The translations under genes were made by a program, and so were the position numbers. The notes under the pieces are model-generated. The model was given only the letters and a program-made list of their open reading frames with translations. It was not told the origin of the DNA and ran no database searches. A DNA stretch of 40,553 bases from a virus, in the IMG/VR virus record IMGVR_UViG_3300042392_001041, positions 1 to 40,553 of that record; one strand, 5' to 3'. Position 1 is the stretch's first letter. Each line of letters starts with the position of its first letter. This document shows positions 2,864 to 21,402 of this stretch, piece after piece.

Positions 2864-3793
2864 ATGGCAAACGAAGCGACAGCCGAACTTTACACAAGGC
2901 AAAGCGGGCTTAACAAAGCCAAACTTAAGACTGACTACGATCAATATTTGGCTGATCTTGCTAGGCAATACGGTCTTTCTACAAAACAATTAGATACCAA
3001 CCTTGAATCCCGTGGCATTTTGCGTTCAGGGGAAGCAGGAGAGTCCCGTACTCAATTAAGTGCAGCCGAAGAAGCAGCACGGTTGAGCGCAAAAAGTGAT
3101 TACGATTACAACACGAGCACGGAAGACATTGACCTTATGACTCGTCTTGCTGGTCTTCAAGCAGGTAGTGCTGGATCAGGTGGCTCAGGTGGCTCAGGTG
3201 GCTCAGGTGGCGGTGGCGGTAATACTGGCGGTAATACTGGCGGTGGCAACACGGGTGATGGAAGCACTACACGACCCGAACGCCAACCAGGCTCACCTGG
3301 CAATCCAAACGCTGTCCGTCCAGGAGTGCCAGCACGACCCGAACGCCAACCAGGTTCACCTGGCAATCCAAACGCCACTCGTCCAGGAGTGCCAGCACCA
3401 CCCGTTCGCCCCGTCCGTGACGCAATTCCTAGACCACCAGTACCAGCGAGAGTAGTAAATATGCCTCGCCCAGGAACGACTACACCAGCACCGCGACCTG
3501 TTCGTGACGCAGCACCACGACCACCAGCACCAGTAACGACAGCACCACGCCCTGGAACCACGCCTGCCCCCGCACCACGGCCGACTCCAGCACCTACGCC
3601 AGCACCAGCCCGAACAGGTACAGCAGACTCAATGGCGCGCAACGCACCCGCTACACCAGCACTACCTGATCTATCGGGCGTTGACTTCGCTGCACTCGGT
3701 CGATACATAGACTCACAGAAAAAACCAGCACCAAAACCAGCACCAAAACCAGCAACCACACGAGTCAACCCCGTCTCAGTAAGGTTGCGATAA
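2864..3793 (+). CDS. Gly/Pro-rich probable structural protein with 21-residue repeats
   Basis: 309 residues with a strong AAGGAG site before ATG. Residues 1-100 are helical and charged; about 101-130 is a Gly/Ser/Asn run (GGSGGSGGSGGGGGN); residues 137-157 and 158-178 are two nearly identical repeats beginning RPERQPGSPGNPNA; the rest is Pro/Ala/Arg-rich with PRPGTT units, then a short C-terminal domain. It opens a run of overlapping genes that leads into the 1974-residue protein, which suggests a virion or assembly role. No family is recognised, and the disordered middle makes a catalytic role unlikely. Confidence 0.6.
   Translation: MANEATAELYTRQSGLNKAKLKTDYDQYLADLARQYGLSTKQLDTNLESRGILRSGEAGESRTQLSAAEEAARLSAKSDYDYNTSTEDIDLMTRLAGLQAGSAGSGGSGGSGGSGGGGGNTGGNTGGGNTGDGSTTRPERQPGSPGNPNAVRPGVPARPERQPGSPGNPNATRPGVPAPPVRPVRDAIPRPPVPARVVNMPRPGTTTPAPRPVRDAAPRPPAPVTTAPRPGTTPAPAPRPTPAPTPAPARTGTADSMARNAPATPALPDLSGVDFAALGRYIDSQKKPAPKPAPKPATTRVNPVSVRLR
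3271..3396 (+). repeat. Two tandem 63-bp coding repeats
   Basis: Copies at 3271-3333 and 3334-3396 differ at a few bases only and encode 21-residue Pro/Gly/Asn-rich units. Recent in-frame duplication inside a disordered region is the simplest explanation; copy number may vary between strains. Confidence 0.8.
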
Positions 3794-16773: not shown

Positions 16774-17006
16774 ACCCGATCAAACTAATCATCATGCGCC
16801 GTCACGCACGGCGAGGCCACCTCAACTTGATGTCACGTCACCTGATCCAATGCGCCGATCAGATAGACGAATTACGCCGAGAGAACCGTGCGCTGCGAAT
16901 CCGTGGTGAGCGTCTCGCACAAGCCATTGAGAACAACGACGACTGCTACAACTGCGACAATGCTAGCGACAGCGTTTCAGCATGGCGGGAGTTTGACGAG
17001 TCATGA
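16770..17006 (+). CDS. Small coiled-coil protein
   Basis: 78 residues; GTG overlaps the TGA of the RecT-like gene (GTGA). The first half is basic (MRRHARRGHLNLMSRH), the middle is an ideal coiled coil (IDELRRENRALRIRGERLAQAI), and the tail is acidic with DDCYNCDN, which could bind a metal. It may dimerise. No known family. Overlaps at both ends show it is co-translated with the RecT-like and WhiB-like genes. Confidence 0.6.
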   Translation: MNPIKLIIMRRHARRGHLNLMSRHLIQCADQIDELRRENRALRIRGERLAQAIENNDDCYNCDNASDSVSAWREFDES

Positions 17007-17683
17007 CAGGCGAAGCAGTCACATTCAACTTCATCCCCGTTCAAGACTGGGTTGAAAAAGCTCGTTGCCGTGGCATGGATCCAAACATCTTCATGCCTGA
17101 GCCTGGCGACTCAACCGCTGAAATCAAAGAAATTTGTAACGGGAACCAACGTCGTAAATTCAACCGTGACAAGCAACGGTATGAAACAGTAGGCGACCCG
17201 CCGTGTCCCGTCCGTGGTCAATGTCTCCAATATGCGATGGAGCTTCCCGGCAAGGTAGTCGGCATCTTTGGTGGCACATCGGAGAAAGAGCGTCGTGCGC
17301 TGCGCTCAGAGTTTCGTATGGACGGTGTACAGAAGCGCATCCAGCACGGCACGATTGGTGGCTACAAAGCTGAATGGCGATTTGGACTAGAGCATTGCGA
17401 CGCGTGTCTCGCAGCCAACGCCGAAGCAACTCGACGCAAAAAAGCCCAAGCAAAATCCAAAGTAAAACATGGAACATATGCTGGATATCGTTCGGAGAAG
17501 CGACTAGGGTTGCCGATATGCGAAGCCTGCCAGCAAGCGTACGAGGTAGAAAAAGCCGACTACCTGTCCAAGACAACAGCGTTAGAGACGGACTCGCCGT
17601 TACGCCAGGTTCTCAACCTACTGCACTCAGTCACAACTGCCGACTGGCCGATAGCAAAGGACATAGCAAGTGAACAATCCTGA
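17003..17683 (+). CDS. WhiB-like regulator with tandem HGT/Cys modules
   Basis: 226 residues. Residues 1-100 are WhiB-like: ARCRGMDPNIFMPE (Cys22), EIC (Cys45), PPCPVRGQC (Cys68, Cys74) and GIFGGTSEKERRAL, matching the G[I/V]WGG turn with Phe for Trp. The usual Cys-x2-Cys is here Cys45-x22-Cys68 because of a 22-residue basic insertion, while Cys-x5-Cys is kept. In the family four Cys hold a 4Fe-4S cluster and the protein acts with the primary sigma factor. Two modules follow, HGT-x-GY...C-x2-C at 115-135 and 156-176, 41 residues apart, like modules in other actinobacterial and phage proteins. It probably redirects host transcription; the insertion leaves cluster binding to be shown. Confidence 0.8.
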   Translation: MTGEAVTFNFIPVQDWVEKARCRGMDPNIFMPEPGDSTAEIKEICNGNQRRKFNRDKQRYETVGDPPCPVRGQCLQYAMELPGKVVGIFGGTSEKERRALRSEFRMDGVQKRIQHGTIGGYKAEWRFGLEHCDACLAANAEATRRKKAQAKSKVKHGTYAGYRSEKRLGLPICEACQQAYEVEKADYLSKTTALETDSPLRQVLNLLHSVTTADWPIAKDIASEQS

Positions 17684-18564: not shown

Positions 18565-18788
18565 ACCGTGAACCACTACCCGACTCACGCCGACCCGACT
18601 TCGGCATGGGCGACCCCGTAGTACGCGAATCTAAACACGACATGGTTGAATACATGACCGAAGTAACCCGCGACATGAAACGAATCATGGACGAACACAC
18701 GATACTCATGAAGCAGTTACTGACTGTCATGACATCAATCCGAGATGCCCAACAGCAAGACCGCTGGAACAACCAGGGGCGACGATGA
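18561..18788 (+). CDS. Small helical protein
   Basis: 75 residues; ATG overlaps the upstream TGA. An Asp/Pro/Arg-rich start (EPLPDSRRPDFGMGD) is followed by a long amphipathic helix (MVEYMTEVTRDMKRIMDEH, LMKQLLTVMTSIRDAQQQD) rich in Met. Probably a coiled-coil oligomer. No known family. It ends in an ATGA overlap with the methyltransferase gene. Confidence 0.5.
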   Translation: MNREPLPDSRRPDFGMGDPVVRESKHDMVEYMTEVTRDMKRIMDEHTILMKQLLTVMTSIRDAQQQDRWNNQGRR

Positions 18789-20215
18789 CACTCACATATG
18801 GAAGCCTTTTTGCGGGCGTGGGCGGTTTTGACATGGGCATGGAAGCGGCTTCTTACGAGCCTGTGTTCCAAGTCGAATGGGATAAGAACTGCCAAAAGAT
18901 CCTGCACCACCATTGGCCGACCGTCCCCAAATGGGGCGACGTATGCGATGTCAACGGTGCAGACCTACCACCATGCGACGTGCTGATCTTCGGATCACCA
19001 TGTCAAGACCTATCAGTAGCAGGCAAGCGAGCTGGACTCCAAGACGGAGACAGATCATCAATGTTCTTTGAAGCCGTACGAATCATCAAGGAGATGAGAG
19101 ATGCAACTAACTCTATTTACCCAAGAGCCACCATATGGGAAAACGTCCCAGGAGCCTTGTCAAGCAACAAAGGAGCCGACTTCGGTGTCGTCCTCTCAAG
19201 TTTGGCTGACATCGGGGCGATTACACAAGAATACGCCGTGCTGGACGCGCAATACTTCCGAAGCACCCCGCAACGACGACGAAGAATATTTCTCGTCTCT
19301 ATCTTCTGTCCTACAGCCAGCGAAAGATGTCCCGACCCGTTACTACCTCTCATCCAAGGCAGCCGAGGGGATTTTGCGAAGGGCCGAAAGGCGCGGAAAG
19401 ACGCTACCCGATTTGCTTCGACAAGCATTGATCCAGGTGATGGAGAAGGATTCCGAATGCTCGCCTTCGGTTATTACACCAACGACGACACCGCTTCCGC
19501 AATAAAAATGCGCGACTACAAAGACGCAACAGATCTCGTTGTGCCATTTGTAAAGTCACGCCGGGCGCAAACTAACACCGATGATGAAACATGGGTAGAA
19601 GGTTCCGTAACCCCGACACTCAACGCCTTTGACAATGGTGGTGAAACTAGGGCTACCGTCCTAATGCCTGTCGCATATTCGATTCGTGAGGATGCCAAAG
19701 CTAACAACTTCAGCGTGACCGAGACAGATACAGCCCTATGTCTCAATGGTCTAGTGCCATCAACGCAGTCGCACCACGCTCAAATATTTATTGCCGAACC
19801 CATTGTCTACGATGGTTACAACCAAAAACTTGACGACAGCGGAATTCACCGTTCGTTGCGTATCGGTCGAGATAGTAGCGACTTCGTGGCACAGCCAATC
19901 ATCTTTGAAAATTCATACCGTGACGGGCCGCGAGTAGGCGACGACATCTGCCATACATTGCCCGCCAAAATGGGCTTAGGTGGTGGCAACACGCCGATGC
20001 TGGCAGAACCAATCGAACACCGATTAGCAGTACGTCGACTTACCCCATTGGAATGCGAAAGATTGCAAGGATGGCCCGACGACCACACCCGCTGGACAGC
20101 AGACGGCAAAGAGCAAGCCGACACCAACCGCTACAAACAATGCGGGAACGGGGTAGCGTCACCCGTGGCACGCTGGGTAGGCGAACAACTACGACCAGTA
20201 TTGGAGACGGAATGA
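18785..20215 (+). CDS. DNA (cytosine-5) methyltransferase
   Basis: 476 residues with the standard motif order: FAGVGGF (I, residues 9-15, SAM binding), GSPCQDLSVAG (IV, catalytic Cys73), ENVPG (VI, Glu119), QYFRSTPQRRRRIFLVS (VIII, about 156-172), a target-recognition region of about 250 residues (CHTLPAKMGLGGGNTP near its end), and CGNGVASPVARW (X). It would methylate cytosine at an unknown site, protecting phage DNA from host restriction or marking expression. No partner nuclease gene is seen, so it is an orphan enzyme. A second frame is open and has its own ribosome site inside it (19101-19505). Confidence 0.9.
   Translation: MTLTYGSLFAGVGGFDMGMEAASYEPVFQVEWDKNCQKILHHHWPTVPKWGDVCDVNGADLPPCDVLIFGSPCQDLSVAGKRAGLQDGDRSSMFFEAVRIIKEMRDATNSIYPRATIWENVPGALSSNKGADFGVVLSSLADIGAITQEYAVLDAQYFRSTPQRRRRIFLVSIFCPTASERCPDPLLPLIQGSRGDFAKGRKARKDATRFASTSIDPGDGEGFRMLAFGYYTNDDTASAIKMRDYKDATDLVVPFVKSRRAQTNTDDETWVEGSVTPTLNAFDNGGETRATVLMPVAYSIREDAKANNFSVTETDTALCLNGLVPSTQSHHAQIFIAEPIVYDGYNQKLDDSGIHRSLRIGRDSSDFVAQPIIFENSYRDGPRVGDDICHTLPAKMGLGGGNTPMLAEPIEHRLAVRRLTPLECERLQGWPDDHTRWTADGKEQADTNRYKQCGNGVASPVARWVGEQLRPVLETE
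19101..19505 (+). CDS. Nested overlapping reading frame in the methyltransferase gene
   Basis: 134 codons, one base forward of the methyltransferase frame. AAGGAG at 19088-19093 lies seven bases before ATG 19101, a better ribosome site than that of the host gene. The product starts MQLTLFTQEPP, has NTSEAPRNDDEEYFSSLSSVL opposite motif VIII, and then VPTRYYLSSKAAEGILRRAE and RRGKTLPDLLRQAL opposite the segment before the target-recognition region. I recall the same alternate-frame pattern (SLSxVL, YYLSxKAxxGILRRAExRGKxLP) in many phage methyltransferase loci. Conserved dual coding is therefore plausible; a by-product of conserved methyltransferase codons is the alternative. Function unknown. 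Confidence 0.5.
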   Translation: MQLTLFTQEPPYGKTSQEPCQATKEPTSVSSSQVWLTSGRLHKNTPCWTRNTSEAPRNDDEEYFSSLSSVLQPAKDVPTRYYLSSKAAEGILRRAERRGKTLPDLLRQALIQVMEKDSECSPSVITPTTTPLPQ

Positions 20216-20382
20216 ACGAACAAGAATGGTTGCAATACGGCATCGACCACGAATTTGTGTGGGGATTCTGTTGCCAACATGAAACCGGGATGAATGCCCA
20301 AGAGGTCGAAGATTACGGTGACGGAGACGACTATTGCGTAACCGCATTTCGATTAAGAAGTGAGTACATCAAAGGATTATGA
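20212..20382 (+). CDS. Small acidic protein
   Basis: 56 residues from ATG 20212, overlapping the methyltransferase stop. Acidic and Cys/His-bearing (FCCQHETGMNAQEVEDYGDG, DDYC). No known family. Translational coupling to the methyltransferase supports expression. Acidic phage proteins of this size sometimes mimic DNA or inhibit host enzymes, but nothing specific is visible here. Confidence 0.5.
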   Translation: MNEQEWLQYGIDHEFVWGFCCQHETGMNAQEVEDYGDGDDYCVTAFRLRSEYIKGL

Positions 20383-20507
20383 TGAACCAACTATCGCCTG
20401 AGGAGCAACGATTTGTGGACAAAACAGTTGAAGTCATCTACTTCACAGGATTAGCAGCAACGTGTGTCGCGATCCTGTGGTGGATCATCGGCAAGATTAC
20501 GAAATAA
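20379..20507 (+). CDS. Small single-helix membrane protein
   Basis: 42 residues; ATGATG start overlaps the upstream TGA. A charged amphipathic start (SPEEQRFVDKTVEV) is followed by one membrane helix (YFTGLAATCVAILWWIIG) and KITK. It is the last rightward gene of this block and its end overlaps the convergent recombinase gene by 11 bases. Role unknown. Confidence 0.5.
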   Translation: MMNQLSPEEQRFVDKTVEVIYFTGLAATCVAILWWIIGKITK

Positions 20508-21402
20508 CCGAGTCAGGTGCAGAACCCGACCCAAATCTGTCTCCATTAGGCTCGACCACAATCTGAGCTATCACATCAGCCTGACTAACCAACGACACAG
20601 GATTGAGTAGGCGCAAAGTCTGCCGAACATACCTATCGTTCGTATGGCCGAGCCACTTCGCTATCACCGGGACAGGAACACCACGCTGAAACTGACGCTG
20701 GACAGCCCACCGACGCATATCCTGCACCGTAAGCCGACGACCAACAGCACCCGAAGCAACATCATTAATCGTCTCAGTCGCGTGCTTAGAACCAAACGTC
20801 CCGCCGAGCGTAGTAGTGGCAGCGAACACCGCTGTCAGACCTAAAGTCAGCACTTCAAGACGACCGTCCACCGGGATCTCGCGCCTGTTACCTCGACGAG
20901 AACGCACCGTGACTAGCGTCTTCCCTTCCCAGGTGCGAACATCCGTCTTACGAATTCGGAGAGCTTCAGCACAATCACAGCCACCCCAGGCGACCATCGC
21001 AGCGAGCCATTCCCAACGAGGCCCACGCTTAGAAAACGCTGACATGACCGCCACCATCTCGTCATCAGACGGCACAGTAGAACTATCAAGCACGATGACA
21101 CGCTTTGGCATCTTGACCGAATGCAGACCGTGAACCTTCAGAACACCAGCCTCGACCAGCGCATCCATCCACTTTGCGACCCCACAAACCCGCGACGCAA
21201 CCGAGGTTGACGTGTACTGAGAAGCCATCCAATCCACAAACAATTGAGCGTTCACCGCCGTGCAATCCAAAGGATGAATGTCCACCAAAGCACACCACCG
21301 TTGCCAGGTCATGATGTCCTTCTTGTACCGTTTACGAGTATGAATCGAGGCGTAACCCCCAAGGTGATGAGCCGTAATCGAGCGAACAGAAGCCATAAAC
21401 AA
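20497..21402 (-). CDS. Tyrosine recombinase homologue with altered catalytic residues
   Basis: 301 residues (ATG 21396, two codons in, is an alternative start). The N-terminal half has the core-binding fold (SIHTRKRYKKDIMTWQRW, LFVDWMASQYTSTSVASRV). The C-terminal half follows the catalytic layout, but key positions differ: GGCDCAEALRI has Asp143 where the first Arg is expected; VQDMRRWAV has Gln228 for the box II His (Arg231 is kept); WLGHTNDRYVRQTLRL keeps His253 but has Thr at the usual Tyr site, with Tyr258 nearer. SRRGNRREIPV may supply the Lys loop. It is therefore either an inactive DNA-binding relative or a divergent enzyme that uses Tyr258. The upstream gap holds attP-like repeats. 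Confidence 0.8.
   Translation of the reverse strand: MFMASVRSITAHHLGGYASIHTRKRYKKDIMTWQRWCALVDIHPLDCTAVNAQLFVDWMASQYTSTSVASRVCGVAKWMDALVEAGVLKVHGLHSVKMPKRVIVLDSSTVPSDDEMVAVMSAFSKRGPRWEWLAAMVAWGGCDCAEALRIRKTDVRTWEGKTLVTVRSRRGNRREIPVDGRLEVLTLGLTAVFAATTTLGGTFGSKHATETINDVASGAVGRRLTVQDMRRWAVQRQFQRGVPVPVIAKWLGHTNDRYVRQTLRLLNPVSLVSQADVIAQIVVEPNGDRFGSGSAPDSVIS

Follow-up and report, generated by a model that had tools for sequence, protein, structure and literature searches.

Nested genes, where a second protein is encoded in a shifted frame wholly inside another gene, have precedent in phages. The E gene of phiX174, which lies within D and appears to be read from its own start, is probably one example (overlapping genes are reviewed in PMC8227390). 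In phage Mu, the small com gene seems to precede, and partly overlap, the DNA-modification gene mom, with which it is apparently transcribed. Out-of-frame HNH insertions have also been described in mycobacteriophage methylase genes (PMC11855218). One such element, ShiLan, is an inserted homing element with HNH and zinc-finger motifs and a patchy distribution. In general, long overlapping genes in bacteria and tailed phages are thought rare and are mostly lineage-restricted. Here, we describe an open reading frame nested in a phage C5-cytosine DNA methyltransferase gene. In contrast to phiX174 E and D, the pair occurs in tailed dsDNA phages of many bacterial phyla, and the nested frame is the better conserved one over its core domain. 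Unlike ShiLan, the ORF is no insertion. It overlies conserved methyltransferase motifs, has no HNH match, and was present in every relative selected by the methyltransferase. We found no publication describing the ORF in the open-access literature, where searches returned overlapping-gene reviews and the ShiLan HNH papers.

Our first goal was to establish whether the nested frame exists as described. The window is the whole stretch of DNA analysed, 40,553 nucleotides from an IMG/VR virus record. The relevant features are as follows.

18785..20215 (+), host gene, encoding a 476-aa phage C5-cytosine DNA methyltransferase (frame 0)
19088..19093 (+), internal ribosome-binding site AAGGAG for the nested gene, inside enzyme codons IKE
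19101..19505 (+), nested gene, in the +1 frame relative to the methyltransferase, 134 codons plus stop
19101..19292 (+), nested N-terminal half (residues 1-64), predicted disordered, overlying motifs VI-VIII of the enzyme and moderately constrained in the +1 frame
19293..19432 (+), conserved C-terminal domain of the nested protein (SLSxxLxxxxDVPxRYYLSxKAxEGILRRAxRRGKxLPxxLxxAL), basic, with two confidently predicted helices
19433..19502 (+), unconstrained C-terminal tail of the nested ORF, variable in length among relatives

The host gene matches PF00145 (E 3e-52) and phrog_116 (E 1e-81). The nested frame begins with ATG, is offset by +1 ((19101-18785) mod 3 = 1), and is separated from AAGGAG by a 7 nt spacer (19094-19100). 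Both peptides ascribed to this frame by the sequence-only reading are present, opposite the stretch between motif VIII (QRRRRIF) and the target-recognition region. Note that the length of the open frame is, by itself, only weakly unusual. In total, 147 of 5000 codon-shuffled versions of the gene (about 3%) had a +1 run at least as long.

Logically, if the nested frame is a gene, it should be kept in relatives chosen without regard to it. To test this, we collected loci using only the methyltransferase frame. All 80 carry the nested frame, down to about 40% enzyme identity, and in AT-rich genomes whose +2 frame holds 40-60 stops. Conversely, of 80 loci collected with the nested protein, 80 have it at +1 of a methyltransferase. 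Similarly, 80/80 loci chosen by the nested C-terminal motif alone are nested in a methyltransferase at +1. We next built a profile only from distant phages (P1, mycobacterial, Vibrio, Pseudomonas, Streptococcus, Akkermansia, and gut Firmicutes phages). This scored 48-79 bits in the +1 frame of all 67 distinct methyltransferases, while 6,700 copies with synonymous codons shuffled reached at most 29 bits. Conservation of the nested sequence is, therefore, far beyond chance.

We then asked whether selection acts on both frames. Over codon-aligned relatives, fourfold-degenerate divergence is 0.36-0.46 in most of the gene before the nested start, 0.18 at the start, and 0.05-0.20 over the nested N-terminal half. 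It falls to 0.00-0.085 over 19289-19432, and returns to 0.30-0.42 from 19433. For 27 disjoint pairs, the counts are 74/1325 inside and 971/3005 outside (Fisher p 7e-96). Strikingly, in 19289-19432 the most variable enzyme codon position is position 1. This is position 3 of the nested codon, and the signature of a +1 protein frame. Over the core domain, mean identity is 0.684 in the +1 frame, compared to 0.411 for the enzyme in frame 0. Part of the so-called variable region of these enzymes is thus shaped by another protein. However, only about the first 110 residues (to about 19432) are constrained, which corrects the sequence-only reading of the full 134 codons. Residues 111-134 behave like ordinary enzyme-only coding sequence (+1 identity 0.20) and many relatives stop at about residue 116. 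Hence, the functional product ends near residue 110-116. The suggestions, in the sequence-only reading, of long-term dual coding, and of the same sequence in other phage methyltransferase loci, are both supported.

The nested frame also has its own start signals. In the enzyme sequence IIKEMRDA, the two Ile codons vary freely. Conversely, AAG and GAG, which form the ribosome site, are used in 59/64 and 62/67 relatives, against 43% and 30% elsewhere in the same genes. Where the enzyme residue is Asp, its codon is always GAT (54/54). Where this residue becomes His, Tyr or Asn, the codon still ends in AT before G, so keeping ATG, and where it becomes Arg it gives GTG. Overall, AGGAG with ATG is found in 59/67 relatives, AGGAG with GTG in one, and GGGAG-ATG in two. 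The remaining five lack this site, but relatives of that type have AAAGG with an ATG a few codons downstream. While start assignment is clear in the window's clade, it is less so in several distant ones. These observations argue for independent internal initiation rather than frameshifting, although translation in vivo is only inferred.

To determine how widely the nested protein occurs, we used tblastn with the window protein. This hit 153 phage records, with methyltransferase the usual annotation under the match. Reading the DNA directly shows +1 nesting in dmt of coliphage P1 and in Vibrio, Pseudomonas, Akkermansia, Streptococcus, Oscillospirales, Ruminococcus, and mycobacterial phages. P1-like plasmids add hundreds of records. 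In P1, the ORF is unmarked in the annotation of the dmt region that we read, where it predicts a 157-residue protein at about 66728-67201 of NC_005856.1. A second methyltransferase clade (clade 2), from Streptococcus, Blautia and related phages, carries a shorter nested form ending YYLSxEKxxxLLxxL-stop. Of 70 such loci, 69 match the strict motif and the last has FYLS instead. Here, fourfold divergence jumps from 0.038 to 0.542 exactly at the nested stop. A +1 ATG is present in 59/59, with AGGAG in 52/59. None of 30 chromosomal C5-methyltransferases gave a signal (best 9.5 bits). A scan of bacterial genome contigs returned only three loci, so prophage abundance is poorly measured, and the profile termed A1 gave matches at E <= 0.001 in 12 of 398 genomes of one phylum, several of them weak. 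The only DNA-level match of the whole region in the phage collection is 114 bases around the nested start in a Streptococcus phage methyltransferase, as expected for doubly constrained sequence.

In Mycobacterium phages Thibault and Bombitas, the methyltransferase is broken up around an HNH gene, near the nested gene, but the nested C-terminal domain survives intact. In Thibault it is annotated as its own 81-aa gene, gp104 (positions 2869-3114 of our extracted locus, L173). This is the nearest to a stand-alone copy, of which there were none among the 80 motif-selected viral loci. In Vibrio phage 1.194.O, and in two clade 2 loci (L375 and L384), methyltransferase and nested frame are truncated or broken together.

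We next turned our attention to the nested protein. Residues 1-64 are predicted disordered (AF2 pLDDT about 50-60), while residues 65-119 form a confidently predicted, basic, helical unit (pLDDT 92, pTM 0.69). The C-terminal domain has a pI of about 10. Searches of the PDB with three profiles gave nothing credible, and no solved structure matched by structure comparison. NCBIfam and PADLOC gave nothing for a function. In PHROGs, the window protein matches phrog_16143 (E 2e-4), as do 34 of 37 nested proteins (best E 2.6e-14). This family is at least partly built from nested-frame proteins but is labelled 'DNA methyltransferase', evidently by transfer from the overlapping gene. Similarly, the PADLOC model PDLC03324 (MTase_II) matches weakly (best E 0.0027). 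This suggests that wrong-frame translations entered these libraries.

We conclude, with high confidence, that 19101-19505 is a genuine overlapping gene with its own internal initiation site, although this confidence does not extend to function and translation is inferred. The most likely scenario is that one mRNA is translated twice, from the enzyme's own start and from the internal AAGGAG-ATG, giving a small protein of about 110-134 residues. An alternative is that the domain is made only as a frameshift product, with ribosomes starting at the methyltransferase ATG and slipping +1, so that the enzyme's N-terminal part is fused to the nested C-terminal domain. Some support comes from Faecalibacterium phage Toutatis. 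The otherwise near-identical genomes of Faecalibacterium phages Toutatis, Lelie, and MT836117 have a poly-G tract of 9, 14 and 11 bases, respectively, just upstream of the nested domain, inside a C5-methyltransferase gene whose motif I follows motif X (circularly permuted layout). This is likely phase variation and, with 9 G in Toutatis, the enzyme's N-terminal part runs in frame into the nested domain. However, the nested SD and ATG are conserved, and reappear downstream in relatives that lack the usual site, and constraint begins at the nested start rather than in the middle. Hence, although no general slippery site was looked for, we consider frameshifting very unlikely as the general mode. 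Strong synonymous constraint alone would also fit an RNA or DNA element (structure, regulatory or packaging site), with the open +1 frame a by-product. This is more improbable still, since the constraint follows +1 codon positions, ends exactly at the nested stop in clade 2, and conserves amino acids through changing nucleotides in distant phages.

With respect to function, our inferences are less certain. Because the domain was found only embedded in this enzyme's gene in phages, the likeliest role is with the enzyme. We tentatively infer that the protein binds nucleic acid, or the methyltransferase itself, and tunes methyltransferase synthesis or activity. It is possible that the gene founds an unrecognised protein family, found only embedded in phage C5-methyltransferase genes. 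Its product would be an obligate partner (regulator, activator or counter-defence factor), tied to the enzyme gene by shared nucleotides so that neither is easily lost without the other. A ribbon-helix-helix (RHH) repressor that autoregulates the methyltransferase operon, which overlaps with our main reading, seems unlikely, but is a live alternative. The domain is basic and Pfam RHH_1, the only recurrent Pfam suggestion, gave E 0.0022 for the window domain and 1.1e-4 for the best of 128 relatives. These align without gaps over Leu, Ala, Gly and Ala positions typical of RHH, and one relative weakly matches the Arc-like PHROG. Conversely, the window score of 18.3 bits is below the 20.5-bit cut-off, only 5 of 128 relatives match at all, and comparison by hhalign with RHH proteins from bacterial genomes gave a probability of 2.9% (P 0.015). 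Furthermore, no strand is predicted in the AF2 monomer (although RHH strands pair only in the dimer), no RHH was among the Foldseek hits for this model, and the clade 2 form lacks the second helix. Hence, we do not assign the protein to the RHH (CopG/Arc) family, but it may still work as a small DNA- or RNA-binding protein. A counter-defence role, for example as an anti-restriction protein that protects the incoming genome until it is methylated, is also doubtful, but remains a live alternative. The association with phage methyltransferases, and absence from the 30 chromosomal ones, would fit, and small phage proteins of this kind are probably common. However, there is no similarity to known defence or anti-defence families. 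The roles proposed in the sequence-only reading, regulating the enzyme or acting on host restriction, remain suggestions.

The genes surrounding the methyltransferase provide some context. A 226-aa protein, encoded at 17003-17683, has a WhiB match (PF02467, E 1.4e-14), which points to an actinobacterial host. At 20212-20382, a 56-aa ORF starts with an ATG that overlaps the methyltransferase stop (ATGA), suggesting translational coupling. Beside the methyltransferase, on the other strand, 20497-21402 (-) encodes a 301-aa protein with sub-threshold tyrosine-integrase matches (Phage_int_SAM_1 E 0.008, Phage_integrase E 0.025).
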